A DNA stretch of 23,982 bases, taken from positions 1-23,982 of the forward strand of contig JAJRTK010000113.1 in assembly GCA_024278345.1 (NCBI GenBank), given 5' to 3'. Origin of the DNA: a bacterium (GTDB taxonomy: Bacteria > CSSED10-310 > JAJRTK01). The position numbers and the translations under genes are program-made. Positions 187-23,982 of this stretch are shown one piece after another. The notes beneath the pieces are model-generated. The model was given only the letters and a program-made list of their open reading frames with translations, did no database searches and was not told the DNA's origin. Numbering within the stretch: position 1 is the first letter of the stretch; the number at the start of each line of letters is the position of its first letter.

Positions 187-493
187 TGCAGAATCTCAGG
201 CGCCGCCCCAGGGCCTCCGGCCCTGGAACCCGGCGGAGGCTCCGCCTCCGGACCTCCGCTGGGAGCTTGCGCTGCGGCCCCTTGGGCTGCGTCTCGCTTA
301 CGCTCGGCATCAGACCCACGCCAGGGAGCGCGCTCATCTTCCCGGTGCAACTTGCGGGCAACGGAATCTGGACCCACATTCATTTACGCCGCGTTGCGTC
401 TTTTTTTGGGGCGGGTGTCCCGGCTTACGTTGATACCCGCATCGAACTGTCCCGTCTTGAGTGGATACCCTCGTTCACAGATAGTCTTTTACG

Positions 494-6871: not shown

Positions 6872-6920
6872 GGGTCACCTCCGTGTGAGGAATTTCGGGA
6901 ATGCAGGCAGTCAGCTCTTT

Positions 6921-6983
6921 TTGGGAGTTGCGTTCCGCTCCCATCACTCGCGGCCGCTCGCGCTGGTCGCCCTGTTTCAGCGG
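6921..6983 (-). repeat. Dispersed hairpin repeat, copy R1
   Basis: Read on the minus strand this copy has the core GATGGGAGCGGAACGCAAC (reverse complement at about 6927-6945). Just before it is a short CGCG...CGCG hairpin containing GCGGCCGC. Further upstream comes CTGAAACAGGGCGACCAGCG, which aligns with the 5' half of copies R2 and R3. It fills most of the gap between the hydrolase stop and the radical SAM start and faces the radical SAM gene. Confidence 0.75.
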
Positions 6984-6986
6984 ATC

Positions 6987-7928
6987 TCAGGCTACTTCCG
7001 AAATGCTGGGCGGCGGGGAAGACTCTTCTTGGATCTCGGCAGCAGAACTCTCTTTCACCAGATGCGCCACCAAAAATTCGCCGAAAATCGACGAAAACTC
7101 CGAAGGACGCTCTTCCTGCCAAAAATGGCCGCAGAAGGGCACCAGCTCGAACCGCTCCGCGCCGGGAATATCTTCGTAGAGACGCCGGCCCCAGGACGGG
7201 GAAAGATAATAGTCGTCGCCTGCCCAAATGACCATGGTCGGGTTCGTGAACTTCTTGAGGTCGGGTACGATGAGCTCCGTGTAGCGAGGATGGCCCGCCA
7301 TCAAAAATCGCTCGAAACGCTCCTGACCCTCACCACTTGAACTCATGGGACGCAGATACTCCCGGATCGACTCGTTGCTGAGCTTCGACCGGTCGTGGAC
7401 TCCCCTGCGGAAGTTGGAGAAGGGGGTGAAAAGCTCGATCCATTCCAAGACTCCCAAGGCTGCCAGGATCTTGGGAAGGAACGGTATCCGGGTCAACCGC
7501 TGGAGGCGCAAGATCGCCGGCACGGGCCAGTTATCGTAACAAACGCAGTCGGTGAGGACGAAAGCCCGGACCCGATCCGGAAACCGGCCTGCAAGAATCT
7601 GTGCCGCGGCGCCACCCTGGTCGTGGCAAACCAGCCCAAATTCCTCGTGGCCAAGCGCAGTCATGAAACTGCCCAGCATCTCGGCTTGCGCCTCCATGTC
7701 GAACCGGGTGGAAGCCGCTGGCCGGGTGTCGCCAAGCCCCATCAGATCCGGCGCGTAGCAATGAAGAGCGTTCTGCAAGAACCGCATGGGATGCCGCCAA
7801 AGGTAGCTCGACGTGGGGATCCCATGGACGAAGAGAACTGGAGGCTTCTCCGAAGAACCGGTCTCCAGGTAGGCGATATCGCCAAAGGAAGTGGAGACGA
7901 ATTTCTTGTCAAGGGCCGGTGAGCTCAT
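6987..7928 (-). CDS. Alpha/beta hydrolase, haloalkane dehalogenase/epoxide hydrolase-like
   Basis: The 313-residue alpha/beta hydrolase has a nucleophile elbow CHDQGG, making Asp103 the likely nucleophile. The acid candidate lies in WAGDDYY (Asp238 or Asp239) and the base is His268 in PFCGHFWQE. The oxyanion strip HGIPTSSYLWR (36-46) is almost that of haloalkane dehalogenases (HGNPTSSYLWR). However, the halide-holding Asn is Ile37 and the Trp that normally follows the nucleophile is Gln104. A dehalogenase role is therefore doubtful, and epoxide or ester hydrolysis is as likely. No signal peptide is seen, so it should be cytoplasmic. AGGA lies six bases before ATG. It lies 63 bases after the MerR-type regulator and upstream of the radical SAM gene on the same strand. 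Confidence 0.85.
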   Translation of the reverse strand: MSSPALDKKFVSTSFGDIAYLETGSSEKPPVLFVHGIPTSSYLWRHPMRFLQNALHCYAPDLMGLGDTRPAASTRFDMEAQAEMLGSFMTALGHEEFGLVCHDQGGAAAQILAGRFPDRVRAFVLTDCVCYDNWPVPAILRLQRLTRIPFLPKILAALGVLEWIELFTPFSNFRRGVHDRSKLSNESIREYLRPMSSSGEGQERFERFLMAGHPRYTELIVPDLKKFTNPTMVIWAGDDYYLSPSWGRRLYEDIPGAERFELVPFCGHFWQEERPSEFSSIFGEFLVAHLVKESSAAEIQEESSPPPSISEVA

Positions 7929-7991
7929 GGCAGATCCTTCCGTAAAGGGTTGTGGTTAATGGTTAGTTCTTAGTTTCTTGCTGCCCGCTAT

Positions 7992-9686
7992 TCAATCCCT
8001 GGAAAGCTCTCCTTTGAGATAGACGGATTCGGCGAAGGCCGAGCCGGGATCGGCCAGGCAGATGGTTCGGCGAAGCTCGTCCAGACTGGGGCTCTCCATC
8101 TCTGAAGCCAATGGGGAGGATCCAGTCCTGGTGAGGGCTTCGAAAAGCAGATAGGCGGTATTGATGAGACGACGCTCGGAAAGGCCGGACAGCGGCACTT
8201 TTTCCGGTGGGAGCTCGCGGGACCCGCTGCCATGAAAGGCAACGGGAGGAAACAGAGAAGAGGAAGCGTCCGGTGGACGGTTCCGCCGTTTCCCACCCAC
8301 ATTTTTGAGCGCGGCCTGCTTTTCCCTTTGTTTCTTCTCTGTCCTGCCTTGAGTGGATGCCCCTCTCCCTTGAAGAGCGCGCAGGACACGAACCAGTAAC
8401 TGGAGCCCCCGAGAGCGCGTCCCAAGGACTGACGGCATGGCCGTGTACACCCAACCGCCGAAGGCCTGGATTTCCAGCTCTTCCCCCGGGGTCTTGGCGG
8501 CCTTGGAGAGGGCGTTTTCCACGTGGGCCAAAATGGTGCCGGCCGTCGTCAAAGCCTGCTCTGGGTGGCCGCCGGCACGATCCCGGCCAAACAGGGCCAG
8601 GGCCAGGCAAATATGGGCTACCGCCGACTGGGGATCGAGATCCAGGGCACGTTGCAAGCTCGCCATGGCCAGCTCCAGATCACCCACCAGAAGAGCCGCC
8701 TTGCCGTGCGCCGCCGCCAAAATCGGATCGCCTTTCCACTTTCTCACCGCCTGCTCAAGGAAAAAGACCGCCTCGTGGTAGCGACCCGTATGGAGCAGCA
8801 AAGCCGCCGCCCTACGCCACTGGCCCGGAGAATCCGGTTCTTCCGACAATTGGATCAAGGCCTCGTCAACGGCGGCACCAAGACCATGACGAGCTACAAA
8901 AGCACGGCTCGGCCGGTAGATGATTCCATCCGGCTCGAAATGGGTTACCGCCCCTTCACCCAAGGTTTCCCGAAAGCGGTGCTCCGTCAGGTTGTGGAGG
9001 ACGTTCTGCACAAAGCTCCCCACCAGCTCGCGCCGGACAAAAAGCTCGCCCAGAAGATGCTCTCCCGCCGTGCCGAAAGCCGACTGAGCCCCGAAGAAGA
9101 CCTGTTGCTCGAGCTCGAAGGCGATCCGAATATAGGAGGCGATGGTCTGAAACGACTCGAAGGATATCCCAAGCTCCATGCCCCGCTCGCAAAGTCCGAT
9201 GATCTTCGCGTCGTACCCGGTAAAAAGAGCTTCCCCACCCTCCTCCAACGGCTCCACCAATCGCGATTCCCGGTATTCCGCCAAATGCTCCGAACCAATC
9301 CCCGTCCGCCTCAGGAGCTCCCCGGCTGGGATCCGCGGTGCATGGAGCCGCCCGGGGTTCGAGGCCAACCGCATCATTCGGCGGCCCAGAGATTCTGAAA
9401 GGGTGAGAGACTCGATGCGGCCCAGATCGAACTCGAACACTTCGAAAACCTGCCGGATCGTCTCCAGCGGAAGGTGGTGCTCTTCACGAAGAAGCCGGAT
9501 CTGGCGCAGCAATCGAACCTGCTCCGGAGTGTAGAGGCCTCGGGCTGGGGATTTGGGGACGAGTCCCTGCCGGACGTAGTGATGTATAAGCTCCTTGGAG
9601 ACGCCGCTCTGATCGGCGACCTCGCTGATCTTGAGAGCCGGCGCCACAGAAGTCGGATTCGCGGTTGCGTGATGGAGCATCGCCAT
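7992..9686 (-). CDS. MerR-family transcriptional regulator fused to TPR region
   Basis: From the chosen ATG this is 564 residues. A MerR-type winged helix lies near the N-terminus (about 18-85: LKISEVADQSGVSKELIHHY, then GLYTPEQVRLLRQI). A middle region follows without a known effector motif. Then come TPR-like helices (AAALLLHTGRYHEAVFFLEQA and AMASLQRALDLDPQSAVAH) and a basic, proline-rich insert before a last helical segment. The reading frame stays open upstream to 9935 but runs through a repeat copy and a promoter, so I chose 9686; 9680 is also possible and has better spacing to AGGGAA. No effector-binding cysteine set is seen, so the signal could be a protein or small molecule read by the TPRs. 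It heads a minus-strand block and probably controls itself and the genes after it. Confidence 0.85.
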   Translation of the reverse strand: MAMLHHATANPTSVAPALKISEVADQSGVSKELIHHYVRQGLVPKSPARGLYTPEQVRLLRQIRLLREEHHLPLETIRQVFEVFEFDLGRIESLTLSESLGRRMMRLASNPGRLHAPRIPAGELLRRTGIGSEHLAEYRESRLVEPLEEGGEALFTGYDAKIIGLCERGMELGISFESFQTIASYIRIAFELEQQVFFGAQSAFGTAGEHLLGELFVRRELVGSFVQNVLHNLTEHRFRETLGEGAVTHFEPDGIIYRPSRAFVARHGLGAAVDEALIQLSEEPDSPGQWRRAAALLLHTGRYHEAVFFLEQAVRKWKGDPILAAAHGKAALLVGDLELAMASLQRALDLDPQSAVAHICLALALFGRDRAGGHPEQALTTAGTILAHVENALSKAAKTPGEELEIQAFGGWVYTAMPSVLGTRSRGLQLLVRVLRALQGRGASTQGRTEKKQREKQAALKNVGGKRRNRPPDASSSLFPPVAFHGSGSRELPPEKVPLSGLSERRLINTAYLLFEALTRTGSSPLASEMESPSLDELRRTICLADPGSAFAESVYLKGELSRD

Positions 9687-9724
9687 TGCTTCCCTGTTGC
9701 ATAACGCATTACATGATTCTGGGT

Positions 9725-9755
9725 AATCTATTTCACGAACGTTTCTTTCTGTCAA
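9725..9755 (-). promoter_or_regulatory. Putative MerR-type promoter (19-base spacer)
   Basis: On the minus strand TTGACA (9750-9755) is separated by 19 bases from TAGATT (9725-9730), about 40 bases upstream of the regulator's ATG. MerR-controlled promoters typically have an over-long 19-20 base spacer that the regulator untwists. The spacer is centred near AACGTT but has no clean dyad. The -35 match is perfect and the -10 match moderate. Confidence 0.5.
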
Positions 9756-9879
9756 TAGCGGGGAGAGGATTCTTTTTTTCACTGGCAGGGCATTTTGGGA
9801 ATTTCGGGCGCTGGGATTCCAGGAACCACAAGAATCAGAGCCAGCGGGCAACGGGATCGTGTCGGTGGATGATTCGTTC

Positions 9880-9943
9880 GCAGCGGTGAATTTGGCGAGC
9901 AGCGGGAGCGGACGCGACCGATGGGAGCGGAACACAACACAAG
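9880..9943 (+). repeat. Dispersed hairpin repeat, copy R2
   Basis: The core GATGGGAGCGGAACACAAC lies at about 9919-9938. It is preceded by AGCGGTGAATTTGGCGAGC and AGCGGGAGCGGACGCGACC, nearly matching copy R3. Only a weak CGG...CCG pairing is seen at the hairpin position. It lies between the divergent regulator and MMPL exporter genes and faces the exporter, 89 bases before its start. Confidence 0.8.
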
Positions 9944-10027
9944 AGAAGATGGCGTCTTTCCAATTGCGCGTTGCAGCACGTGGGAGTAGGGTTTCACCGT
10001 TTTGAAATTCTCTCCTAGGACGAACGC

Positions 10028-12382
10028 ATGTTGAACCGGATCCTGGAAATCATCTGTCGCTCCTCGGCCCGTCATCCATTCCGTTGGCTTCTGGTCACGG
10101 CGCTATTGTCGATTCCCGCTGTCAGTGAATTGGGACGGCTGAAGATCGATACCAACCTCAAGAGGCTGTTGCCGGAGGAGAGTCGGGCGGTTCTCGCCAG
10201 CGAGGAGCTTGAGAAGCTCGTGGGCGATGGTGGCCATTTCAGCATGATCTTTGCCGGGTCCGATCACGAGGTTGTTTTCACGGCCTTGAAGGAAGCGGCC
10301 AAGCAGGTGGAGGCCATGGGGGAGGTTCAGTCGGTGACCTACCGTTATCCGCTGGATTTCATTGAGCGTTTCAAGTATTTACTCCTGCCGTCGGAGAGTC
10401 TTCAAAAGCTGTTTGACACGCTGGTGCGGTGGAAGGATGAGGCAAGCCCCTTTGGGTTGAAGCTGGATTCCGGAGGTGGTGGTGCGTCCGATGACGAGGC
10501 CCGGGAGCGCCTGGACGACTACGAGTCGTTTACGGAGTTTCATCAGAGCGAGGATGGCACCCAGATGGGGATGCTGATTCGTGCAAAGAAGGGTGCGACA
10601 AGCTTGGGAGCCACCAGGAAGCTGTTTCGGAAGCTCGATGCATTGGCGCAAAAGGTGGCGAAGTCCCACGCTGTTTGGGGCGGAGTGAGCGGTTCGCTCA
10701 GAAACAAGGTGGACATATACGATCAGATTATCCGCGATCTGAATGTTTCAGGGACGTTTGCCCTCATCGCGATTCTGGCGACGCTTTTGGTGAGTTTTCG
10801 GAGCTTCACGGTTTTGCCGGTTCTTGTTTATCCGCTGGTCACGGGTCTTCTTTGGTCGTTCGCGCTGGTTCCGAGTCTGGTGGGCTCGTTGAACCTCATA
10901 ACGTCGTTTCTTCTGATGGTTCTTTTCGGAATGGGGATCGATTATTCGATCCACCTTGTGAAGCGTTTCCAGCAGGAGCTTTTGGATCGCGGTACGGAAG
11001 CGGCTTTGTTTGAGACCTATCGCTCCACGGGTTATTCGGTGGGCACATCGGGCCTCACGACGGCGCTATCTCTGTCGATTCTATCTTTTTCTGGTTTTCG
11101 GGGGTTTTCTGAGTTTGGCATCATCAGTGGGACGTCGCTCATGATGATCCTTGGGAGCATGTTCTTGGTCTTGCCGTCGGCACTGGTGGTGGGCGCCCGG
11201 TGGGGGCTCGTCAAGGCGTACAAATCCCACAAGCCTCAAAGCTGGAAGCTGATGCCGCCTCTCTGGTTCACCTGGGCCCTGGCGGCGGTAGTCCTAGTCG
11301 CCGCGGTTTACGCTGTCACGGGTCTGGAGTTCGATTACGATTTCGGGAACCTCAAAGTGAAGGTGGCGGCCTCCCAGGAAGTGAAAAGGCACCACCAGAA
11401 GGTGTACCATCGCGGTTCCATGTCTCCCGCGGCCCTCTATGTTGCGAAGGATATGGATGCTTTGGATAGGGGCTTGGATCTCCTTGAAGAAACGAGAAAA
11501 GAGCAGGGGGAAGACTCCATTATCGGGCGCGTTGGCAGCCTTCGGGACTATGTTCCCGGGCGGGAGGAGGCCGCCAAGCGGGTAGAGCTCTTTTCCGAGC
11601 TTCAGGATCGTCTCAAGGGTCGTTGGATTCGCCGGGTCAAGGAGGAGGACCGGAGGCGCTGGATCGAGGATGCCCGGGACTTCAAGGCGCCGCCGGCCCC
11701 GCCCACCCGTGAGGATCTGCCTGCTATGGTCCGGCGGGGACTTGAGACACGGGACGGCTCGGGAGGCTTGGTCATCGCGGTCTTTCCATCCAGGGAACGG
11801 AAGCATGGGAAGAACGCCATGGCCTTCACCAAAACCCTGTATTCCATGAAGATGCCGGCTGGAGTTCGCGGTCCCACGGGAGAAACCCCTATTTTCGCCG
11901 AAGTTTTGTGGCTTGTGACCAGTGAAGGTCCCTGGCTGGTGGCCATCACATTCTTGGGGATCTTTTTGCTCGTTCTTTTGGATCGGCGGTCGTTTTTTCA
12001 GACTCTTTGGGTGCTGATGCCCCTAGTGGCCGGCCTTCTACTGACTTTAGGAAGCATGGTGGCCCTGGGTTGGAAGCTCAATTTTTTCAATATCGTTGTG
12101 TTGCCGGCTTTATTAGGCATCTCCGTGGATCAGGGCATCCATTTCTACCGCCGGTGGCGAGAATTGGGCTGTGTGGAGACGACGCAGGATGAGCTTCTGG
12201 AACCGATCACCGCTTGTACCTTTACAACGATCATGGGGTATGCCGGCATGACGCTGGCTCATCATCCAGGATTGGAAGCCATTGGCAAGCTCGCGCTTTT
12301 GGGACTGAGCTGTTGTTGGCTCACGGCGGTGGTGCTTTTGCCGGGGCTCTTAGCTTTGCGGGAGCGCAGGCGTGACACGTGA
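10028..12382 (+). CDS. MMPL/RND-superfamily exporter
   Basis: This 784-residue protein has the duplicated RND layout. There is one N-terminal membrane segment (about 17-35), a periplasmic domain (36-240), five or six membrane segments (240-432), a second periplasmic domain (433-633) and five more segments (634-778). The proton-relay aspartates of the family are Asp305 in GMGIDYSIHLVKRF and Asp701 in LLGISVDQGIHFYRR. The overall form is like the MMPL and hopanoid-exporter (HpnN-like) group, which moves lipids to the outer membrane using the proton gradient. The cargo is not evident. AGGA lies seven bases before ATG. It is divergent from the MerR-type gene, with a repeat copy between them. The nearest downstream genes are a small broken gene and a PAP2/GtrA pair, so a lipid or envelope role is plausible. 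Confidence 0.9.
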   Translation: MLNRILEIICRSSARHPFRWLLVTALLSIPAVSELGRLKIDTNLKRLLPEESRAVLASEELEKLVGDGGHFSMIFAGSDHEVVFTALKEAAKQVEAMGEVQSVTYRYPLDFIERFKYLLLPSESLQKLFDTLVRWKDEASPFGLKLDSGGGGASDDEARERLDDYESFTEFHQSEDGTQMGMLIRAKKGATSLGATRKLFRKLDALAQKVAKSHAVWGGVSGSLRNKVDIYDQIIRDLNVSGTFALIAILATLLVSFRSFTVLPVLVYPLVTGLLWSFALVPSLVGSLNLITSFLLMVLFGMGIDYSIHLVKRFQQELLDRGTEAALFETYRSTGYSVGTSGLTTALSLSILSFSGFRGFSEFGIISGTSLMMILGSMFLVLPSALVVGARWGLVKAYKSHKPQSWKLMPPLWFTWALAAVVLVAAVYAVTGLEFDYDFGNLKVKVAASQEVKRHHQKVYHRGSMSPAALYVAKDMDALDRGLDLLEETRKEQGEDSIIGRVGSLRDYVPGREEAAKRVELFSELQDRLKGRWIRRVKEEDRRRWIEDARDFKAPPAPPTREDLPAMVRRGLETRDGSGGLVIAVFPSRERKHGKNAMAFTKTLYSMKMPAGVRGPTGETPIFAEVLWLVTSEGPWLVAITFLGIFLLVLLDRRSFFQTLWVLMPLVAGLLLTLGSMVALGWKLNFFNIVVLPALLGISVDQGIHFYRRWRELGCVETTQDELLEPITACTFTTIMGYAGMTLAHHPGLEAIGKLALLGLSCCWLTAVVLLPGLLALRERRRDT

Positions 12383-12474
12383 GCGAGATCGGTGGCGAAG
12401 AGAGTGGACTTTCGGCCTGTGGCAACCTTAGGGGAGGATCGGTCTGTCCTTCGAGTGGGACGATTTGCAGGTCG

Positions 12475-12483
12475 AAAGGAGGT
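12475..12483 (+). promoter_or_regulatory. Strong ribosome binding site for the small broken gene
   Basis: AAAGGAGGT ends seven bases before ATG at 12491. It is one of the best Shine-Dalgarno matches in the window and fixes the start of the small gene, rather than GTG starts at 12379 or 12392. Confidence 0.7.
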
Positions 12484-12490
12484 CTTGAGA

Positions 12491-12696
12491 ATGAAAGGGA
12501 AGGACGCGGGCGCCTTAACCATCGATATCCGAGGCGCCGTAGAGGATCTCGGAACCCGTCGGGTCGTGGAGGAAGTAGGGCTCGCGGGTTGCTAGAAGTA
12601 GGGCTTTCGCGCTTCGTGGAAGAGGTCGGCGTTGAACGGATGGAGCGAGAGTTGAGTCGGCTTCGTCAGGAGCCAGGGGACCCGAAAAAAGAGTGA
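12491..12696 (+). pseudogene. Small helical-repeat gene, apparently frameshifted
   Basis: The first frame starts MKGKDAGALTIDIRGAVEDL, reads RRVVEEVGLA and stops at TAG 12593-12595. The -1 frame then continues the same kind of sequence: LLEVGLSRFVEEVGVERMER, then ELSRLRQEPGDPKKE, ending at 12696. Put together, these form nine-residue units like RxVEEVGLx, with one Glu missing at the joint. This is what loss of about four bases near 12583-12592 would leave. Such repeated VEEVG helices are seen at the tails of Rpn/PD-(D/E)XK-type transposase proteins, but the match is only a resemblance. No slippery heptamer is seen, so programmed frameshifting is unlikely. It follows the exporter by 108 bases. 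Confidence 0.55.
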
Positions 12697-12741
12697 ACGG
12701 GCGAGGGCTGGGGTGGTGGCGAATATTGCGGAGACTGTAAG

Positions 12742-13704
12742 TTGAAAGTTGTTGGGTGTTTAAAGAATTCACAGGACCGTTGGCCTTGGATCGCTCTTGT
12801 TCTCTTTCCGGGGCACCTGCTTTTTGCCGCGGTCACTGTAGGAGCGCGACCGGAGCATCTGGTCATCGATGCTCTTTTCCTGGTTCTTGCATGGTCTGGG
12901 AAGTGGGGGAGAAAGGTCTCTCTGGGAACCCTTCCTATCTGGCTCGTGGCTGTTGCCTATGAGAACCAGATCTTTCTTTTGCCTTTTCGAGGTTCTATTC
13001 ACATCGGCAGCCTCCATTCCCTGGAGCTCCTGTTCTTCGGCGTTCCTTTTGAAGGTCATCGACAGATCCTCGCGGACTTTTTTTTAAGGCACACTTGGCC
13101 CTCAGTGGACCTCGTTACGGGGTTCGCCTACATGACCTACCTGTTCGAGCCGATGCTCTTGACTCTCTACTTCCTGTGGCGGGCTCCGGTACGGGCGGCT
13201 CGGCTCGCGTGGGCCTTTTTGCTGGTCAATCTCATGGGGATCGCCACGTACATCCTGCTCCCGGCGGCACCTCCTTGGTATGTCCAGCAGTACGGCATGG
13301 GGCCGGCCATCTTGACGGCACCCCCAAGTCCGGCCGGCGCCGCGGCCTTCGATGCGCTTGTGGGGATTCCCTACTTCGCCTCATTCTACGCAAGGAGCGC
13401 CAACGTCTTTGGTGCGCTGCCTTCTCTCCACGCGGCCTATCCGGTACTTTGCCTGCTTTCGGTTTGGGGGCTGGGGGTCTCCTGGCTCGTAGGGACTTCG
13501 CTCTTTGCCCTTCTTGTGGGCTTCTCGGCAGTCTATCTTCGGCACCACTACGTCATCGACGTCTTGATGGGGTGGGCTTACGCCGGCGTGGCCTTTGCCG
13601 TGGTGTGGCAACTTGTGCGTCGCTTTGCCATGGTCAATCCCGAAGGACCGTCTGCTGCCGCCATCGATGACCCAGCCATGCAACTGACGGGGGAAGAGAG
13701 ATGA
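12742..13704 (+). CDS. PAP2-superfamily membrane protein, inositol phosphorylceramide synthase (AUR1)-like
   Basis: The 320-residue integral membrane protein has about seven or eight hydrophobic segments. It carries PAP2-family catalytic motifs: LLPAAPPWY (172-180), ALPSLHAAYP (225-234, His230) and YLRHHYVIDVLMG (265-277, His269 and Asp273). In AUR1 and relatives these residues transfer a phospho-alcohol head group between lipids. In simple PAP2 enzymes they hydrolyse lipid phosphates. The PPW motif and length favour the AUR1-like branch. The start codon is TTG, with GGAGA seven bases upstream. The stop overlaps the next gene's start as ATGA, so the GtrA gene is translationally coupled. A role in making or recycling an envelope glycolipid is inferred. 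Confidence 0.85.
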   Translation: MKVVGCLKNSQDRWPWIALVLFPGHLLFAAVTVGARPEHLVIDALFLVLAWSGKWGRKVSLGTLPIWLVAVAYENQIFLLPFRGSIHIGSLHSLELLFFGVPFEGHRQILADFFLRHTWPSVDLVTGFAYMTYLFEPMLLTLYFLWRAPVRAARLAWAFLLVNLMGIATYILLPAAPPWYVQQYGMGPAILTAPPSPAGAAAFDALVGIPYFASFYARSANVFGALPSLHAAYPVLCLLSVWGLGVSWLVGTSLFALLVGFSAVYLRHHYVIDVLMGWAYAGVAFAVVWQLVRRFAMVNPEGPSAAAIDDPAMQLTGEER

Positions 13705-14180
13705 AAGGCCTGGCCCGGCAAGATCTTCCCACGGAGGAACAGGGGGAACAGGGGCTATGGCTCTTGGTGAAGAATGCGATCTCCGCCGTGACGGCGACGG
13801 GAAGCGACTTCGCTCTGGTTGTCGTCCTGGTTTCCGGCGCGAAGTTCCAGCCTGCCACGGCCACGGCCTTGGGCTGTGTGCTGGGGGCGGTGGTCAACTA
13901 CTCCATGAACCGGACTTGGACCTTCCAGACTTCGGGCTCGGTTCGTCTCGAAGCCATACGCTATGCCCTGGTCAGCGGATCGAGCCTGCTTCTCAACGCA
14001 AGTGGCGTGCAGCTTCTCTGGAAGGCGGGGACCGACTATCGCGTGGCCTGGTGGCTGACCAGAATCGTGGTTTTCCTGGGCTGGAACTACCCCCTCCACC
14101 GCTATTACGTCTTCAACGACTCCCGCTGGAGTGGAAAAGTGGCTCGTGCTTTTCGCCTAGGACGTAATTTTCAGAAATAG
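13701..14180 (+). CDS. GtrA-family membrane protein
   Basis: At 159 residues this has the usual GtrA length, with four membrane segments (roughly 32-48, 54-70, 88-110, 118-138). It carries the family signature VNYSMNRTWTF near the end of segment 2. GtrA-like proteins are thought to flip polyprenyl-linked sugars or otherwise help surface polysaccharide and teichoic-acid glycosylation. Its start overlaps the PAP2 stop (ATGA) and GAAGAGAG lies just upstream. It converges on the ATP-grasp gene, overlapping its 3' end by 10 bases. No glycosyltransferase partner is in the window. Confidence 0.85.
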   Translation: MKGLARQDLPTEEQGEQGLWLLVKNAISAVTATGSDFALVVVLVSGAKFQPATATALGCVLGAVVNYSMNRTWTFQTSGSVRLEAIRYALVSGSSLLLNASGVQLLWKAGTDYRVAWWLTRIVVFLGWNYPLHRYYVFNDSRWSGKVARAFRLGRNFQK

Positions 14181-15415: not shown

Positions 15416-15427
15416 GGATCTTCCGCC

Positions 15428-15475
15428 GGGTTGGATTCCGCTCCTATCTCTCGCCCTCTCTTCGGCAGCGAAAAC
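15428..15475 (-). repeat. Dispersed hairpin repeat, copy R4 (degenerate)
   Basis: On the minus strand it reads TCGCTGCCGAAGAGAGGGCG, then GATAGGAGCGGAATCCAAC (core reverse complement about 15430-15447). It diverges from the other copies (GATAGGAGCGG, then AATCCAAC), and only a weak TCGC...GCGA pairing is possible. It faces the ATP-grasp gene, 15 bases from its ATG. Confidence 0.55.
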
Positions 15476-15487
15476 TAGGACGTCTGG

Positions 15488-15967: not shown

Positions 15968-16013
15968 ACCCTGTTCCTCATAAGCTCTGCCAGTGGGGTG
16001 AGAGGCCCCCAGA

Positions 16014-16280
16014 TCATTTCTTTCGCCTTCTCTTGTGGCGGTATCGGCTCCCGCCTTTCCAGCCTCGGGAACCGGATTTTGAGGCGGATTTTTGCTTCTT
16101 GGGTGGCCGCTTTTTCTGGACGGGAGCCTCCGCTGGCATCGGGAGCTCTTCCGGGACGGGAAGGAGCTCCTTGGGTGGCGGTCGCAGAAATTCCAGGATC
16201 TTGACCCAGGTTTCGTTTGGCAAGAGGACGGCAATGATAAGAGCGATTCCCAGGAAAAAAGTTGCGAGGATACTAGGCAT
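16014..16280 (-). CDS. Small membrane-anchored basic protein, unknown
   Basis: The 88-residue protein begins with one hydrophobic segment (ILATFFLGIALIIAVLL, 4-20). A proline- and glutamate-rich stretch follows (about 33-55), and it ends in a strongly basic tail (KKRPPKKQKSASKSG, then RYRHKRRRKK). I do not recognise the family. The layout suggests an inner-membrane anchor with a cytoplasmic nucleic-acid- or ribosome-binding tail, which is inference only. GGGAG lies ten bases before ATG. It sits between phosphofructokinase and the release-factor-like gene, all on the same strand. Both it and the release-factor-like protein end in basic tails. Confidence 0.6.
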   Translation of the reverse strand: MPSILATFFLGIALIIAVLLPNETWVKILEFLRPPPKELLPVPEELPMPAEAPVQKKRPPKKQKSASKSGSRGWKGGSRYRHKRRRKK

Positions 16281-16337
16281 CGGGTGAGCACTCCCTGTGT
16301 TTTCAAAGCTCCACGAAAAAACAAACGGTTTGCGAAG

Positions 16338-17456
16338 TCAGTCCCCGAAGGCTGTTCCCACCTGCCGCGCACTGCGGATCCAGGGATGGTCGATGGGAAC
16401 GGTCTTCCGCCTTCCCACAATCTCTTCCAAAGGAACGGCGACGGTACCTTGGCCTTGGACACCGACCATGATTCCATACCGTCCTTCCGCAATGAAGTCG
16501 ATACAGGCGGATCCTATCCGCGTTGCAAGAAGCCGATCGGCGGCTGAAGGCGCGCCTCCTCTTTGTAAGTGCCCCAGAATCGTCAATCTAGATTCCAGGT
16601 CCGTGAGGCGCTCGAGTCGGCGGGTAAGGCGGAGTGTATGCTCTGATCGGTGCGACCGGAGTTCCGTGAGGTGGTTCTTGATCTTTCTGCGTTCCTTGCC
16701 CTTCGCTTGGTCTTTCTTTTCAAGCAGCACCTGGACTTTGGCCGCGAGATCCAGAGGCATGGCTCCTTCGGAAACGGCGACGATGCTGAACCTCTTGCCG
16801 TCGCGGCTCCGGGATCGGATGGCGGCGGCGACCTTTTCAACGTTGTAGGGGATCTCCGGAATCAGAATGACATCGGCGCCTCCGGCCAGCCCCGCCCCCA
16901 AAGCCAGCCAGCCAGTATTGTGCCCCATGATCTCCACAACAATAATCCGGTGGTGGCTGTGGGCGGTACTGTGAAGGCGGTCGAGGGCCTCGGTAGCAAT
17001 GCCCAGGGCCGTATCGAAGCCGAATGTCACGTCTGTTCCCGCCACGTCGTTGTCGATGGTCTTGGGCAGCGTGATGATGTTCAGCCCCTTTTCCGCCAAC
17101 AGATGAGCATTTTTCTGCGTGCCGCCGCCGCCCAGACAGACCAGCACATCGAGTTGATGTTTTCGGTAAGTCTCTACCATGCTGTCCGTCATGTCCAGGA
17201 GCTTGCCACCGACGGGCATCTTGTGCGGCTTGTCGCGGCTGGTGCCCAGGATCGTGCCTCCTCGGGTCAAAATCCCCGAAAGCTGGCCCATGCCGAGGCG
17301 GATGGACCTGTTGGACATGAGCCCGCGAAACCCTTCGTAAAAACCCACGATGTCCGTGCCGAACACCTTGTGAGCTCCTTTGCCTACAGCCCGGATCGCC
17401 GCGTTGAGACCAGGACTGTCTCCACCCGAAGTCAGGATCCCGATATGTTTGGTCAT
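16338..17456 (-). CDS. pfkA: 6-phosphofructokinase (group III-like)
   Basis: The 372-residue enzyme phosphorylates fructose 6-phosphate in glycolysis. It has [13 protein letters not shown] (6-18), [10 protein letters not shown] (108-117), LPKTIDND (130-137; Asp135 is the catalytic base), [16 protein letters not shown] (177-185) and LGHLQRGG (294-301). At the phosphoryl-donor site, Gly112 corresponds to E. coli Gly104, which favours ATP. Lys132 corresponds to position 124, where Lys is typical of pyrophosphate enzymes. This G/K mix is known in the group III clade. The metal-binding Asp103 position is Gly111. GGAGGGAAG lies just upstream of ATG. It is followed by three same-strand genes that may be cotranscribed. 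A linker at about 245-285 is rich in charged residues. Confidence 0.93.
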
Positions 17457-17647
17457 CCGTCTTCCCTCCAGTTCTACCGGCCTAGCTCAAGGAATCCCGT
17501 CGAATCGCTGCTTTTCCACCGGCGGCGGTTCCGCGCCAAGGGCTAGATAGCGCTATGGATAGCATAGATTGCTCGACTTCTCGGCCTCTCCACCGAAAAA
17601 AACCGGACCTTTCAAATTTGTGAGCCCGAAGCCTTCCCATCGCCAGC

Positions 17648-18280
17648 TCACAAAAAGTAGACTCCTGTCAGGACAAGCCAATAGACTCCCACGACGAAGA
17701 AGATCGACAGTGTGGTGCGAACTCCCAGAAGCCCAAGGTTATGGATGGGGAAAGGAAACCCCCCAGGGAGCCGCACGGCGGCGAAGCGAAAGAATAGGGC
17801 GACCGAAAGGACGGAGAGGGCTACCAAACCGCGAAAGAGAGCCTGGCGAAGCTCAAGGGAGATGGGTTCGATTCCTGCCAGAGCTAGAAAACCAAGGATA
17901 AAATACCCCAAAGTCGGAAGCAAAATGCCAACCCGAAGAGGCCAGGCCGCGGAGTCACAAAAGCTCAGGAATTGAAGCAATTGCCCTTTCTCCTTTTCAC
18001 AGACCGCGAAGGAGGGTAGCTCTTGGAGGGTTATTTGGGCGGGATCTTCCGCGGTTTTGCCGCACCAGAGGCAGCGGCGGTTGCTTCGAGAGTAGATCCA
18101 TCGGCTCGCCAGCGGCCGGTGGAGGCCGATCATCGCCGCTGCAAGGAGAAGGCTCAAACCTGTCCCCAACGGTAGTTTCAGCATCATGATGAGGGTCAAT
18201 GGGATGAAGGCGAAAAGCAGAAATCCCACGAACCGGTCTCCCAGTTTGCTGGCCAAAGTGGTGTTTTGACCTGTTTTCAC
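17648..18280 (-). CDS. Membrane protein with CxxC motif, unknown
   Basis: From GTG 18280 the protein has 210 residues with five or six hydrophobic segments (for example VGFLLFAFIPLTLIMML, LLPTLGYFILGFLAL, SIFFVVGVYWLVLTGVYFL). A loop after the second segment holds RCLWCGK, then a Cys in FAVCEKEKG and another in FCDSAAW, a possible zinc- or metal-binding site. I do not recognise the family. The frame is open to 18427, but GTG 18280 has GGGAG eight bases upstream. The extra N-terminus would overlap the control region of the divergent gene. It lies 191 bases upstream of phosphofructokinase on the same strand. That gap shows no gene, only a 9-bp inverted repeat (17617-17654) and a T-tract. Confidence 0.65.
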   Translation of the reverse strand: MKTGQNTTLASKLGDRFVGFLLFAFIPLTLIMMLKLPLGTGLSLLLAAAMIGLHRPLASRWIYSRSNRRCLWCGKTAEDPAQITLQELPSFAVCEKEKGQLLQFLSFCDSAAWPLRVGILLPTLGYFILGFLALAGIEPISLELRQALFRGLVALSVLSVALFFRFAAVRLPGGFPFPIHNLGLLGVRTTLSIFFVVGVYWLVLTGVYFL

Positions 18281-18414
18281 AGCGAAGATCTCCCGTCGAA
18301 GTCGGCGCGTGACCGATCCTGGCGGCCATGACCAGACCCGGCTCTGGCCGCCGCTTTGAACCGGTGTCCACTCCTGAAAGTGCCGCGAATGATTTTTTTG
18401 GTAAACTGAACAGT

Positions 18415-19053
18415 ATGATGAAGTCAAGTCAGCTCAGATGGAAGCTCCCTAAAATCCACCGTTCAAGAATTGGGCTGGTCTTTGCCTATGGGTTGGCCTG
18501 CCTGGCATTCCCCTTTTCGGCTCTGTGTGGGAACCCGGCGGCTCTGGACCAAGAGACCGGTTTTTGCGGTGCCATCTTCGGAATGTCGCCCCACCAGGTG
18601 GGGGTGGCAGCGCTCGCGGGACAGCGTGAGGGATTGGAAATGGGGCGCCGGCCCGGAGATCAGGCCAACTTTCGAGGGGTTGTGGTCGAGGCTGTCGAGT
18701 ACGGATTCCAGAATGGCCGGCTCGGTGTTATCTGGCTTCGCGTGGATGATCCCAAGAGAGCCTCGAAGCTCTACCGCCTCCTGGTCCAAGTGTACGGCAA
18801 ACCGAAAGCCGACCCTTACCGGCCCTGGATCAGGGAGTGGGCCGGCACCCGAAACCGGATTCGCTTCGAGGTGCTAGACGGCGAAGGCCGAGCAAAAATT
18901 CGGATCTCGGGCTCCAAGCACTCACTCATGTTGTTCGGGGGGCTTCGAAAAGTTCGGCGGCCTAGGCGGGGGGCGGCCGATCCAGCCCTCGACCCATCGC
19001 GGCAGCAAGTGAAACCGCAACGGGATAAATACGGCTACTTTTCCGAAGACTGA
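18415..19053 (+). CDS. Putative secreted protein, unknown
   Basis: From ATG 18415 (or 18418) this is 212 residues. The N-terminus looks like a signal peptide: a basic stretch (KLPKIHRSR), a hydrophobic core (IGLVFAYGLACLAFPFSA) and a likely cut after ALCG or nearby. The mature part holds GFCGAIFGMSPHQVG and VEYGFQNGRLGVIWLRVDD, then LYRLLVQVYGKP. This resembles small periplasmic proteins whose FGMS...Y.F.(D/N)GRL pattern compares two states, but I cannot name a family. The C-terminal 40 residues are charged and probably disordered. The frame opens earlier (18328) but lacks a ribosome site there, and none is obvious at 18415 either. It converges on the kinase gene, with 13 bases between stops. 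Confidence 0.65.
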   Translation: MMKSSQLRWKLPKIHRSRIGLVFAYGLACLAFPFSALCGNPAALDQETGFCGAIFGMSPHQVGVAALAGQREGLEMGRRPGDQANFRGVVVEAVEYGFQNGRLGVIWLRVDDPKRASKLYRLLVQVYGKPKADPYRPWIREWAGTRNRIRFEVLDGEGRAKIRISGSKHSLMLFGGLRKVRRPRRGAADPALDPSRQQVKPQRDKYGYFSED

Positions 19054-19066
19054 CGGGCTCGGTTCA

Positions 19067-22000
19067 TCAAATTTTCGGGCCGGCCCAACTCGAACCCGGG
19101 GTTCCCGGCCCGCTGGGATCCGGGTCCAGAAGAAGCCGGAGCCGGCGCGGGATGTCGTCCTTGATTTGCCCGCGGATCAGTTGCTTGGGGCCGCCAGTCA
19201 CGAAAGCGGCCTGAGCCCGCTCAAGACCGTTGATGGCCTGGCATAGTGGGCTTTCGGTAAGGAGGTCGAGGGGGGAAGCCAGCTCTTTGGCGCGAGCAAG
19301 ACAAGGGTTGCCGTCCCTTCCTTGAGCCAAAAGAGCGTGGCCCTGCTCGCAAAGGCAGAGAGCCTGGGAATAGCGGTCATCAAGGGAATCGAACAGCCTC
19401 GCTGCCCGACGCGTCATTTCATCGCCGCGGGATGCATTGTTGGCCGCGAGCCTTTCCAGGCGAGACATCTGGAGCAAGGTACGCGCCTCAAATCTTCTAT
19501 CTCCAGTCTCCCGGTGAACAGCGAGCGCCTGTTCCAGAAGGCGCCGGGCCATGAGGGGATCACCCTGATCCAGAAGAAGAGCGGACAGATTGCACCGGGT
19601 GATCGCCTCGGTATAGCGGTCCCCTATTTTTCTGCTTAGCTCCAGGGCCTCGTGAAAGAGAAGCTGCGCCTTGTCCAGCTTGCCCTGGTGGTGGTGCAAC
19701 CGGGCCAGGTTTCCGGTGACGAGAGCGGCGGATCGGTAATCGCTGGCCTCCCGGGCCAAGGAGAGAGCCAGCTCCCATCGGCTGACGGCTCCGGAGAAGT
19801 CCCCGGTGAGGAAGAGATCTTCACCAAGATTGGCATGCTGAACGGCTTCACCTCGAAGGTAGCCCACACTCCGGTGGATCTTCAGCGCCTTTTCGTACAG
19901 GGGCCTCGCCAGATCCAGGCGGCTCTCGGTGCTGTGCAGGACCGCCAAGCTTCCAAGAATGTTCCCCTCGTTGATGGGGTCTCCCACTTGGCGTGTCAGT
20001 TTCAGGGCCTCGTCGAAGAGCTTTCGGGCCTTGTTTCTCCGACCCTGTTGCTTTTGGAGAGATGCGAGATTGGCCAAGTTGAAGGCCTGGGACCGCAGAT
20101 TTCCAGTTGTTTGGTGGATCTCCAGTGAGCGCTCGTAATGTTCCCGCGCTTCAATGAAGTGGCCCCGTCGATGCTCCAGGGTTCCCAGTGCCATGAGGAT
20201 CTGGCCCTCCTGGCCAAGATCGCCGGCCCGTCGGGAGAGATTTAGGGCCTGCTCCAGGCAGCTTTGGCCTTCCGCCGACTCTCCCGCCGCATCGCGAGCG
20301 GCTCCAAGGCGAAAGAGCCCTTCGATTTCCAGACTGCCGTCGCAGAGGTCCCGTGCCTCTTGCAGTGCCGTTTTGTGCAGCTCGATGGCCTCCTCGATCT
20401 TGCCCTGGCTCTGCAAAAGGAGTTTCGCCAATTCATTGCGGGCCTTCACCGATTGGGAAGAGGGCCCTGGCCGCAGATGGAAATAGGCACGATAAAGGCG
20501 AATCGCTTCACTGTTGAGATGGCGGTGCCTGGCGACAACAGCGGCCCGAAGATAGGCATCTAGGGCTCGATCCCGGTCTTCCGCCAGTTCCCAATGATGT
20601 CCCATGGATGCCAGTCGTTCACTTTCGAGCCCGAGCCCGCCGGCCTCCAGCAGCTCCGCGGCTCGTCGGTGCAGACTTTGGCGTTCCTCCAAGGGGATCG
20701 CGCCATAGGCCATGGAACGAAAATGGTCGTGAACAAACCTCAACCGCCCGGCCTTCGGTTCCACCAGAATCTGTCTGTTCAGCAACTCTTCCAAGGCATC
20801 GAGAGCCGAGATTTTCTCCGGCTTGAGGAGGCGCTCCAGGAGTTCGGCATCAATTTCGGCGCCGAGGACCGAGCAACAAGTGATGGTTTTTCGTGCCTTG
20901 GTGCCGACGCCGTCGAGCCTCCGACGCATCAACTCCTGTAGGGAGCGCGGAAGGGGAAGGGCCTCGTAGATCGCCTCGTAAGAGCTGTCCTCTCCGCTCA
21001 CTGAAACCTGCCAACAACCCACTTCATCTCTAGAAAGAAGGCCGTCGGCCACCATGGCGTGGAGATACTCGGCGACGAAGAAAGGATTGCCTTCCGCCTG
21101 CTGTGCCAGTAACCGGACGAAAAGCTCAGGCGGCGCGGAAAGGCCGAGCATGTCCGCCACAATCCGGCCGATCCCGTTTTCGTCCAGGGGCTCGAGAAGA
21201 AGCTTGGAGCAGCGGCGCGAGCTTTCCAGAGCCTCGAGCTCTGGAAGAGCATTCTCCGTGCGATAGAGACAGACGACCAGGAGACGGCTTCGTTCCAGGC
21301 GGCCGGAGTCCAGAAGAAGGCGTAAGAAACCCAGGGCAAGATCGTCCGCCCACTGGAAATCGTCGAGAATCAGTAAGACGGGATCCGCCATTGCCAGGTT
21401 CAAGAAGGTCTCCGCCAAGTAACTGAGAAGCCTGAGCCTGGCTGCCCGCGGGGGAAGATCTACCGGCTCCGGGTAGAGCTCCTGGCCCGGGAGCTTCTCT
21501 AGCGCGGGCTCATAGAGGGCAAGAATCTTACCGCGGTTGCCCAGCAGCAGGTTTGTTTCCTGGAAACCGAGTTCCCGGCAGCGGTCGGCAATGGACTGCA
21601 GAGGGCGCCGGAGTGCCTGGAGTGGCGCCATGGTTGGAGCTTCCCCCGGGATACCACCAGCCAATGGACGAGCCTCGCCCGTCAAGATTAGAAGACCTGT
21701 TCGGGCCGTTGCCGAGGCTAATTCCAGGGCGAGCCTCGTCTTGCCTACGCCCCGTTCGCCACCTATCAGAAGCACTTCACCTTTGGGCGTCGCCGCAAGG
21801 GCGCCGGCCCGGTTTCGCAATCGGCCGAACAGCTTTTCGCGGCCTGTGAACCCCGGGCGGTAAAGAAAGGCCCGTGGCTGCGGAGATGGTTCCGCAACCG
21901 CCGAATCCGCGCCCAGGAGCAAGAGATCCGAAGCTACGTCACCCGCGTATCCCGGCCGCGCTCGGGGATGTTTGGCCAACAACCGCAGCACCAGATCGTC

Positions 22001-22894
22001 AAGCTTCTTAGAGATCCCTTCCACGTAGCGTGACGGAGGGGCGGGCATTTTCTGCAAGTGGGCCTCCAGCAGCTCTTTTTTAGTCCGGCCACGGAAGGGT
22101 GGTTTCCCCGTGAGCAGCTCGTACAGCAGGCAGCCAAGGCCATAGAGATCGGCTCTTGCATCCACGGGCGAGCCCAGGATTTGCTCCGGCGACATGTAGG
22201 CCACCGTTCCGCCGCCCTCGCTTCGAAGAGCCAGGGAGTCGCGGCCAAGGCGTCCGCCAAATTGAGACATCAAGCCAAAATCCACGACCACCGGTCGCCC
22301 TCCGGTGGTGACCAGGATATTCTCCGGCTTGAGATCCAGGTGAACCAGCCCCTCTCCATGAAGAAAAGCCAGAGGTCCGCAGAGCCGACGAACCACGGTC
22401 AGAACCTTGAGAATCTCTGGGTTGTCAGTGGTCGCTTCCCCTTCGGAAACGGGCAGCTCTCCGCCGGTGGAAAAGCCGTCCACGGCTTGGTCGGCGACAG
22501 GAAAAGTGTTGGCGACCTCCCCATCGAGTGCCCCCCCGATACTGCTTTGTTGTACCGACAAGGTCCACCAATCCGAATGCTTCCCCGAATCCACCGGGAG
22601 CCCACAATATCGCCGAAGGGACTGACCCCTTACGATCTCCATGGCGTACCATGGAACTCCTTCTTCGACGCCTTCTCCCAAAACCCGTGCGATCCCGGGA
22701 TGCCGAATCCTGGAGAGTGCCCTCAATTCTCGCCGGAGCCCTTGAAGAAAAGAGACATGAGGCACGAGTACCGTCTTGAGAGCGACTTCGCTCCCCGACT
22801 CCAGATGTCTGGCGCGGTACACAATGCCCATTCCGCCTCGGCCAAGAGCTTCGAGAATCCGGTAGGGCCCGATTTGCGTCGGTAGTCGTGTCAT
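19067..22894 (-). CDS. Serine/threonine protein kinase with AAA ATPase and TPR repeats (STAND-like sensor)
   Basis: From ATG 22894 the protein has 1275 residues. The kinase domain (10-330) has GRGGMG (18-23), Lys40 in VALK, HLDLKPEN (185-192), DFG (205-207) and SPEQ (235-238). Residues about 100-158 are a low-complexity insert before the catalytic loop. The catalytic loop has Leu instead of Arg before the Asp, so it is a non-RD kinase. An AAA module follows with Walker A GERGVGKT (379-386) and Walker B VLLILDDFQWAD (506-517). Many TPRs follow from about 770 to 1240 (AFNLANLASLQKQQGRRNKA, ALVTGNLARLHHHQGKLDKA). This PknK/AfsR-like design is common in Myxococcota and relatives and is thought to sense signals by oligomerising. 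The frame is open to 23206, but that part carries a repeat copy, so the shorter start is preferred although its ribosome site is weak. Confidence 0.9.
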   Translation of the reverse strand: MTRLPTQIGPYRILEALGRGGMGIVYRARHLESGSEVALKTVLVPHVSFLQGLRRELRALSRIRHPGIARVLGEGVEEGVPWYAMEIVRGQSLRRYCGLPVDSGKHSDWWTLSVQQSSIGGALDGEVANTFPVADQAVDGFSTGGELPVSEGEATTDNPEILKVLTVVRRLCGPLAFLHGEGLVHLDLKPENILVTTGGRPVVVDFGLMSQFGGRLGRDSLALRSEGGGTVAYMSPEQILGSPVDARADLYGLGCLLYELLTGKPPFRGRTKKELLEAHLQKMPAPPSRYVEGISKKLDDLVLRLLAKHPRARPGYAGDVASDLLLLGADSAVAEPSPQPRAFLYRPGFTGREKLFGRLRNRAGALAATPKGEVLLIGGERGVGKTRLALELASATARTGLLILTGEARPLAGGIPGEAPTMAPLQALRRPLQSIADRCRELGFQETNLLLGNRGKILALYEPALEKLPGQELYPEPVDLPPRAARLRLLSYLAETFLNLAMADPVLLILDDFQWADDLALGFLRLLLDSGRLERSRLLVVCLYRTENALPELEALESSRRCSKLLLEPLDENGIGRIVADMLGLSAPPELFVRLLAQQAEGNPFFVAEYLHAMVADGLLSRDEVGCWQVSVSGEDSSYEAIYEALPLPRSLQELMRRRLDGVGTKARKTITCCSVLGAEIDAELLERLLKPEKISALDALEELLNRQILVEPKAGRLRFVHDHFRSMAYGAIPLEERQSLHRRAAELLEAGGLGLESERLASMGHHWELAEDRDRALDAYLRAAVVARHRHLNSEAIRLYRAYFHLRPGPSSQSVKARNELAKLLLQSQGKIEEAIELHKTALQEARDLCDGSLEIEGLFRLGAARDAAGESAEGQSCLEQALNLSRRAGDLGQEGQILMALGTLEHRRGHFIEAREHYERSLEIHQTTGNLRSQAFNLANLASLQKQQGRRNKARKLFDEALKLTRQVGDPINEGNILGSLAVLHSTESRLDLARPLYEKALKIHRSVGYLRGEAVQHANLGEDLFLTGDFSGAVSRWELALSLAREASDYRSAALVTGNLARLHHHQGKLDKAQLLFHEALELSRKIGDRYTEAITRCNLSALLLDQGDPLMARRLLEQALAVHRETGDRRFEARTLLQMSRLERLAANNASRGDEMTRRAARLFDSLDDRYSQALCLCEQGHALLAQGRDGNPCLARAKELASPLDLLTESPLCQAINGLERAQAAFVTGGPKQLIRGQIKDDIPRRLRLLLDPDPSGPGTPGSSWAGPKI

Positions 22895-23334
22895 AAGCTG
22901 AGAAAGAGGAAGATTCAGAAAGATACGATTTCCATCAACCTCCAGCTTAACCGATGAACACCCCCACGGTCCATGACGACAAAACCCGGGATCTCTTTCG
23001 GTCACTTTCCCGCGACCCATTGTCCCGCTTTGCGTGGATACCCCCGAAACTGAAGGGTGTGGCCGCGGGATACCGCGGTGCAAAGGAGCGTCGAACTGGG
23101 GTGGTGCTCCGGCCTTCGGGCAATGAATGGCGAGAGCGGTGACAATGGCGAGCAGCGGGTGCCGGATGGCGCCTGATGGGAGCGGAACGCAACACAAAGA
23201 AAGCAAAGGGATTACCGAAGACTACGCCCTGGACGAAGACCGCGATCCGAACTGGCCCACCTTCCGTAGATGCCCGAGGAGAAAAAATTGCACGACGGCC
23301 TCAGACTGCCGCCAAAACCATCGAAATACATCTC
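22895..23334. other. Intergenic region between kinase and Flp pilin genes
   Basis: About 440 bases separate the kinase start from the pilin promoter. An open frame continuing the kinase upstream crosses repeat copy R3 and has no family resemblance. Apart from R3 I see no gene, RNA or clear promoter for the kinase here. Confidence 0.55.
23131..23200 (+). repeat. Dispersed hairpin repeat, copy R3
   Basis: The core GATGGGAGCGGAACGCAAC lies at about 23175-23193. Just before it is an 8-bp stem with two G-U pairs and a GGAT loop (CGGGTGCC 23156-23163, GGCGCCTG 23168-23175). Upstream, GAGCGGTGACAATGGCGAGC matches copy R2 closely, and the AATGGCGAG motif is itself repeated at 23125 and 23144. It lies upstream of the pilin genes in the same orientation. 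Confidence 0.8.
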
Positions 23335-23364
23335 TTGACAGATGGCCTAGCTCTTCTCTACAAT
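23335..23364 (+). promoter_or_regulatory. Sigma-70 promoter for the Flp pilin genes
   Basis: TTGACA (23335-23340) is separated by 18 bases from TACAAT (23359-23364). This is the closest match to the sigma-70 consensus in the window. Transcription would start near 23371, leaving a leader of about 35 bases before the GTG start of the first pilin. Confidence 0.75.
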
Positions 23365-23405
23365 CCTTCTCCAAACGGGGCCGAAACTGGCAAAGGGGCC
23401 GAAAA

Positions 23406-23630
23406 GTGCGTGGGTTATTGATTCGGATCAACAAGACCCTCAGGGATCGAACGGGGCAAGGGATGACGGAGTATATTCTCATCGTCGTCCTTGTGGCGAT
23501 TCTGGCGATCTTCAGCATTCGGATGTTCGGCGGAAAAGTTGGGGAAGCCGCCCGCCGTGCCGGGGATGCCGTGACCAATGGATCCTGCTGCACGGGGCAT
23601 CCACCCTATGTTGGGAAGTCAACAAATTGA
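23406..23630 (+). CDS. Flp-type prepilin 1
   Basis: The 74-residue type IVb prepilin begins at GTG, with AAAGGGG seven bases upstream. The longer open frame upstream crosses the promoter and a repeat. A 17-residue basic leader ends in Gly, followed by QGMTEY. This matches the Flp processing rule (cut after Gly, then XXXXEY) for the TadV/FppA peptidase. The hydrophobic assembly helix follows (ILIVVLVAILAIFSIRMF). The mature pilin is 57 residues and ends in a CC pair (SCCTGHPP), which is unusual for Flp pilins and could form disulfides or a surface contact. It would be exported to the inner membrane and assembled by a Tad machine, which is not in the window. Confidence 0.88.
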   Translation: MRGLLIRINKTLRDRTGQGMTEYILIVVLVAILAIFSIRMFGGKVGEAARRAGDAVTNGSCCTGHPPYVGKSTN

Positions 23631-23812
23631 AGTGGATCACTGAGATCATCAGGGATGAGTCGGGGCAGACGATGACCGAGTACGCGCTACTGGTGGCATT
23701 GATCGCCGTGGCACTCATCGTTGTCTACCAGTACTATGGCTCCGCCATCCAGAACCGTTTCATCGGCTCGGGCAATACTCTCTACGGGGCGACCAACAAC
23801 TGCGGTCACTGA
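23627..23812 (+). CDS. flp: Flp-type prepilin 2
   Basis: The 61-residue Flp prepilin starts at TTG, which overlaps the stop of the first pilin as TTGA. GGGAAG lies eight bases upstream, so the two are probably translated together. The 13-residue leader MKWITEIIRDESG is followed by QTMTEY, a standard Flp cut site, and a hydrophobic helix (ALLVALIAVALIVVYQYYG). The mature product is 48 residues. It is closer to the classic Flp major pilin than its partner, with a single Cys near the C-terminus (NNCGH). Tad assembly genes may lie beyond the right edge. Confidence 0.9.
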   Translation: MKWITEIIRDESGQTMTEYALLVALIAVALIVVYQYYGSAIQNRFIGSGNTLYGATNNCGH

Positions 23813-23880
23813 TGCCGGACAAGCCTCGGGTGTGGGACGCATGAAGGAGGGCAAGGTGTCAGGGAACCGCTCTCTTTTCC

Positions 23881-23945
23881 TTGGGTTGTCTTCCGCTCCC
23901 GTCGGCGGCAGTCCGTCCGCCGACACTCGCCTTTCAGCGACCACC
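23881..23945 (-). repeat. Dispersed hairpin repeat, copy R5
   Basis: On the minus strand the core reads GACGGGAGCGGAAGACAACC. Just before it is a perfect 8-bp stem (GTCGGCGG 23901-23908, CCGCCGAC 23917-23924, 8-base loop), and before that GCTGAAAGGCGAGTG, as in copies R1-R3. It lies after the pilin genes and points back towards them, the only copy not facing a following gene in the window. Nothing else is seen from 23813 to the edge. Confidence 0.75.
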
Positions 23946-23982
23946 GGATCGGGCTTGTCTCCCTGAAGCCGTACCCCGAGTA

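Follow-up and report, generated by a model that had tools for sequence, protein, structure and literature searches.

A stretch of 23,982 nt from the contig JAJRTK010000113.1 (the window) carries five intergenic copies of a repeat, R1 to R5, which combine a conserved core with a hairpin of changing sequence. From the sequence alone, an initial annotation proposed selection on the hairpin and named REP elements, MITEs and structured RNAs as possible explanations. This raises the question what kind of element the repeat is, how it reached its positions, and whether the hairpin itself is being kept.

The repeat in the window and in the genome

The five repeats are real, as all of them were matched by a covariance model (model R1, built from R4 and copies outside the window in the gapless alignment A1 of 58 copies). 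Their positions are collected in Table 1. R1 is located just upstream of the gene at 5027-6871 (-). For R3, the match comprises 45 nt compared with the usual 66; the conserved 3' part is kept, the variable hairpin is gone, and the fold energy of the match is just -4.7 kcal/mol. The 8-bp stem formerly attributed to R3 is therefore not the stem of the family. The weak pairing described for R2 and R4 was also incorrect: both are well paired when aligned, and the apical stem of R4 is perfect. The R4 core consists of basal GC pairs, a GAG/GGA purine internal loop, the variable stem and a GGNN loop, followed by GGAACGCAAC and an A-rich tail.

Table 1. Coordinates of the repeat copies and associated features in the window
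Feature	Positions	Strand	Evidence
R1 core	6913-6976	-	covariance model 49.2 bits; tandem G·A stem class
R2 core	9889-9952	+	covariance model 57.7 bits; tandem G·A stem class
R3, degenerate	15416-15460	-	covariance model 23.8 bits, E 1.4e-4
R4 left target-site duplication CGAACTGG	23092-23099		8/8 match to 23248-23255
R4 complete MITE, 148 bp	23100-23247	+	young-subfamily alignment; ends and duplication by script
R4 core	23142-23207	+	covariance model 81.7 bits and structure
R4 right target-site duplication CGAACTGG	23248-23255		8/8 match to 23092-23099
R5 core	23871-23936	-	covariance model 75.4 bits; fold -21.7 kcal/mol

The assembly which contains the window comprises 6.06 Mb in 550 contigs. 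The shared core GGGAGCGGAACNCAAC is abundant in this genome and occurs 468 times with at most one mismatch, compared with 2 occurrences of the reversed control. The genome-wide covariance-model search proposed in the initial annotation revealed about 190 matches in 1.22 Mb at E < 0.001. The density in unselected contigs, about 148 copies per Mb, corresponds to an estimated 900 copies in the 6.06-Mb genome, far more than the five in the window. Based on gene calls from a hexamer-based caller made for this analysis, 184 of the 190 matches are essentially intergenic.

No match to the repeat was found with the covariance model in 7 other genomes of the phylum, which is sparsely sampled, and none in viral contigs. 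In 59 other genomes the core pattern occurs 0-2 times per genome, which is the level expected by chance. Among the GTDB genomes, 11 exact matches to the core pattern were detected, one per record. These scattered matches look like chance; one of them, L089, reaches 25.7 bits with the covariance model.

Other repeated sequences were noticed as well. Compared with 0 occurrences of the reversed control, 1.44 Mb contain 113 copies of a second, very abundant repeat, TGTCCCGNNTTNNGTGGATACCC, among them window positions 416-438, 448-470, 8340-8362 and 23021-23043, L057 at about 400 and L038:617 (-). It is sometimes fused directly to the edge of the hairpin core. At the start of the contig (window 19-97), Rfam gives a match to a group II intron, namely its 3' portion (RF00029, 58 bits). 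The Flp-pilin-like region bearing R5 (window 23406-23982) recurs almost unchanged at the start of contig C460 (L147:1-200); a few bases differ, and the recurrence is seen as either a duplication or variation between strains within the assembly.

Covariation and folding of one strand

In the middle of the element, a hairpin of about 45 nt precedes GGAACNCAAC and an A-rich tail. A covariation test on the 58-copy alignment gives this hairpin strong support. Twelve of the 16 stem pairs change on both sides. Over the whole 16-pair helix, 72.7% of the cells are paired compared with 61.8% in shuffles, and 115 cells show double changes compared with 50. The same helix was recovered by RNAalifold with the alignment as sole input. 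It is composed of two basal GC pairs, the internal loop, a Y-G and an R-Y pair, one mismatch and the variable stem. The R-Y pair is A-U in 31 copies and G-C in 25. In rare copies the GAG/GGA internal loop is replaced by a perfect complement (GGCTCCC/GGGAGC, GGCAACC/GGTTGC or GGCGCCT/AGGCGC), and one class of copies contains tandem G·A mismatches within the variable stem. Rfam matched no core in the window at the gathering cut-off, nor the cores L045, L059 and L061 at E ≤ 1.

The stem pairs include 90 G·T but 0 A·C combinations, and for each of the 58 copies the fold of the given strand is better than that of the complement. It is thus one particular strand that folds. RNA fits this best, a single DNA strand less well. 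Matching arms can also arise without selection, through strand-switch repair (quasi-palindrome correction) or gene conversion, and such processes might in principle have kept the pairing here. However, they are blind to the strand and do not account for 90 G·T pairs next to 0 A·C; in addition, many pairs show changes that pass through G·U intermediates, and conserved unpaired bases are kept too. An origin of the pairing without selection is therefore highly improbable. A sponge of the CsrA/RsmA type would use the GGA of the loop, which is present in about 90% of the aligned copies, and the GGA of GGAAC as protein sites. Yet CsrA (PF02599) was not found in the assembly, which is 87.9% complete and in which control families were detected, and we consider this function extremely improbable. 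Two further candidates were dismissed: no R'/R'' boxes matching an integron attC site were seen, and the hairpin is followed by A-rich rather than T-rich sequence, which does not correspond to an intrinsic terminator.

About 16 cores per 1.44 Mb carry an extra hairpin in the loop, GGGGAACTCGCGCCGAAGGCGYGGGTC, for example L117:6739-6827, L125:11758-11846, L046, L063 and L155. As L155 is a young MITE copy, the apical part is exchangeable.

Element ends, target duplications and the likely mobiliser

A 100-nt query derived from near-identical copies yielded 40 matches with 82-100% identity, and the limits of the unit, from GGTGGTGCTCCAGCCCTAGGGC... to ...GCCCTAAAAGAAGAGCACGACC, were read from their flanks. 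The repeat core is the centre of a unit 146-148 bp long, which is bounded by terminal inverted repeats and flanked by target duplications of 8 bp. The repeat is thus a MITE, one of the options named in the initial annotation; at this length the unit is too short to encode a transposase of its own. In subfamily A, both ends carry the inverted repeat GGTSGTGCTC(N6)TAGGGC, which is imperfect in R4 and in subfamily B. This pattern occurs at 111 places compared with 1 in the control. R4 starts with GGTGGTGCTCCGGCCTTCGGGC and ends with ...GCCCTGGACGAAGACCGCGATC, and the pattern was matched at C32:23100. The second subfamily shares the core but has other ends.

The 8-mers flanking the elements are identical at 0.685 of positions compared with 0.385 expected (z = 8.8), and the signal appears solely at length 8. 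It was obtained with the ends of the young subfamily fixed, as an unconstrained search around all copies was not discriminating. Exact duplications were found at R4 and further copies; at L123, the perfect duplication is ACAAAACC. In R2, MITE ends are not recognisable. Those of R5 seem to have decayed, and comparison with subfamily B and L147 suggests an approximate span of 23837-23971.

Terminal inverted repeats together with 8-bp duplications are indicative of an IS1-like DDE transposase. IS1 elements have the ends GGTGATGCTG... and duplicate 8-9 bp of their target; the MITE ends GGTGGTGCTC and the 8-bp duplication would agree with these values. Some sites with the end pattern border longer elements which lack the core, with reading frames of the IS1-transposase type beside them. 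At C58, C548 and C273 the terminal inverted repeat of the MITE adjoins IS1 transposase fragments, and PF03400 scores above its cut-off at C548 and C400. The IS1-family elements are known here as fragments, since the assembly breaks at them and copies are cut at contig ends. As these fragments share the ends of the MITE, IS1 is the likely mobiliser, and the MITE is probably moved by an IS1-family transposase of the same genome. Another repeated element with the end GGTGGTGCTCTACCCCTAGGGCATTGACAATTGC is cut at three contig ends (L188:4436-end, L189:2013-end and L193:1531-end); it is probably another insertion sequence with ends of the same kind.

Many intergenic copies with a hairpin would likewise be expected of a REP element moved by a RAYT, a Y1 transposase for which the initial annotation had recommended a search nearby. 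Searches with the Y1_Tnp family and for RAYTs indeed revealed one RAYT-like gene in the genome (C390:22510-23232; NF047646, 67 bits, below the 80-bit cut-off), and a divergent core overlaps its 3' end. However, a core is located next to about every sixth gene, and no close core is present on the other side of the RAYT-like gene. The repeat has no conserved GTAG/CGTC tag; GYRG occurs at that place, with R paired with Y across the stem. The RAYT-like gene is present as a single copy and has its own, different palindrome with a GTAG tag, which has 4 exact matches in the genome. The terminal inverted repeats and 8-bp target duplications contradict the REP reading, and the duplications argue against a Y1 enzyme. 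A RAYT-like gene is present in the genome, but it was rejected as the mobiliser, and the REP reading is very unlikely. Within this gene (L085:1012-1737 in local numbering), the tagged palindrome GTAGGGGCGGGTTCCGAACCCGCCC occurs in two in-frame copies.

Preservation of the core, gene context and known systems

The MITE has not been preserved evenly. In 107 of the 185 copies with enough flank, the outer sequence is no more alike than random intergenic DNA. The cores of these copies differ by only 3.8% from the consensus at 17 conserved positions, and their nearest neighbours share 91% identity; both values rest on the 43 of 107 copies with the gapless 66-nt core class. Faint traces of the left part of the MITE remain where they would be expected (63% G at position -29). 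While 15 of the 17 subfamily-A ends found have a core, only 22 of the 190 cores have a recognisable end, or, under other limits, family similarity in 63 of 185 copies. Even in young subfamily-A copies the core changes less (0.058 per site) than the outer parts (0.079 and 0.104), with some ascertainment bias since the core was required. No duplications were found at the core edges of the end-less copies. Instead of having decayed, the outer parts of these orphan copies might also derive from different MITE subfamilies. That the 107 copies without ends keep such little-diverged cores argues for selection on the hairpin itself. Together with the covariation, this supports the selection proposed in the initial annotation, and we infer, with good support, that purifying selection maintains the hairpin in old, immobile copies. 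Preservation of the centre instead of the ends is unusual for a MITE and the reverse of the normal situation.

The orientation of the copies may bear on what the hairpin does. The initial observation that four of five copies face the following gene holds in the window; genome-wide the bias is mild, with 66 co-oriented and 44 antisense copies in tandem gaps (p = 0.045). Copies lie nearer to the 3' ends of genes; for those co-oriented with the upstream gene, the median distance from its stop codon is 75 nt. The stems contain 0.34 mispairs per ten pairs when the upstream gene is co-oriented and 0.96 otherwise (p = 0.017), with p = 0.24 for the orientation of the downstream gene; all of these orientation effects are weak and the p values are given without correction for multiple tests. 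They hint, without proving it, that the hairpin may work in the 3' part of upstream transcripts. No replication-strand bias was detected when GC skew was compared with the strand of the element (21/21 and 17/26).

The main difficulty for a cis role in mRNA is posed by 44 of the 185 placed copies, which lie antisense to the genes on both sides, so that such a role cannot apply throughout. Such copies would be expected from a purely selfish MITE, whose hairpin serves transposition alone, for example bound as single-stranded DNA by the transposase or bound by a host factor, and whose copies are all recent enough to look intact. The density of the repeat, which is about even across tandem, divergent and convergent gaps, and the young, near-identical copies with intact duplications would fit as well. 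However, most copies with an intact core lack recognisable ends and duplications, stems differ widely among copies, and IS1-type transposases act on the ends, which should then be the best conserved part. We therefore regard the purely selfish MITE as rather unlikely.

The explanation we favour is exaptation of the hairpin as an RNA element, which may reside in 3' untranslated regions. An IS1-type MITE would have spread to about 900 intergenic places by use of the transposase of resident IS1-family elements with matching ends. Old copies would then have stopped moving and lost their ends to decay, while the hairpin stayed under purifying selection. It may function at the RNA level in transcripts, for the most part downstream of gene 3' ends, where it could for instance mark the upstream mRNA for protein binding, processing or stability. 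We consider this account as a whole reasonably likely; the role in transcripts is its weakly indicated part. A more specific version is put forward tentatively: the MITE could have seeded several hundred structured RNA elements, whose end-less copies would be kept singly, mainly in 3' untranslated regions, and would bind a putative RNA-binding protein or nuclease.

Conserved ends are the usual means of identifying bacterial MITEs, which are commonly regarded as parasites. The roughly 900 copies in this one genome show the opposite, since the ends decay and the central hairpin stays, with compensatory changes and the signature of one folding strand. Whether bacterial MITEs get recruited as RNA regulators thus becomes a question that can be tested by sequence at hundreds of sites in one organism.

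Several known systems are similar in part. REPs, which are defined by GTAG or CGTC tags (PMC3733652), and REPINs with their RAYTs occur as hundreds of intergenic palindromes, mostly near the 3' ends of genes (PMC3733652, PMC2817692), and one RAYT-like gene is present here too. In contrast to them, the repeat lacks the tag, has terminal inverted repeats and 8-bp duplications, and its stems vary freely within one genome. The BOX elements of Streptococcus pneumoniae are likewise modular MITEs with internal modules, whose RNA structure was derived by RNAalifold and which were proposed to act when co-transcribed (PMC3049150). No sequence relation to them was shown, and the terminal inverted repeats of BOX pair together, while the unit conserved in the present repeat is an internal hairpin separate from the ends. 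The closest likeness is to bacterial MITEs such as Correia/NEMIS, ERIC, Nezha, MITEAba12 and IS1-derived elements, which are 100-200 bp long and intergenic, have terminal inverted repeats and target duplications, share their ends with resident insertion sequences and are predicted to form folded transcripts. Among them, ERIC and Correia elements alter mRNA processing (PMC2229807, PMC10969869). The repeat described here differs from these MITEs in its apparently IS1-like ends and duplication, in being GC-rich rather than AT-rich, in its strict strand asymmetry, and in a centre which, instead of the ends, is the most conserved part and shows extensive compensatory change.
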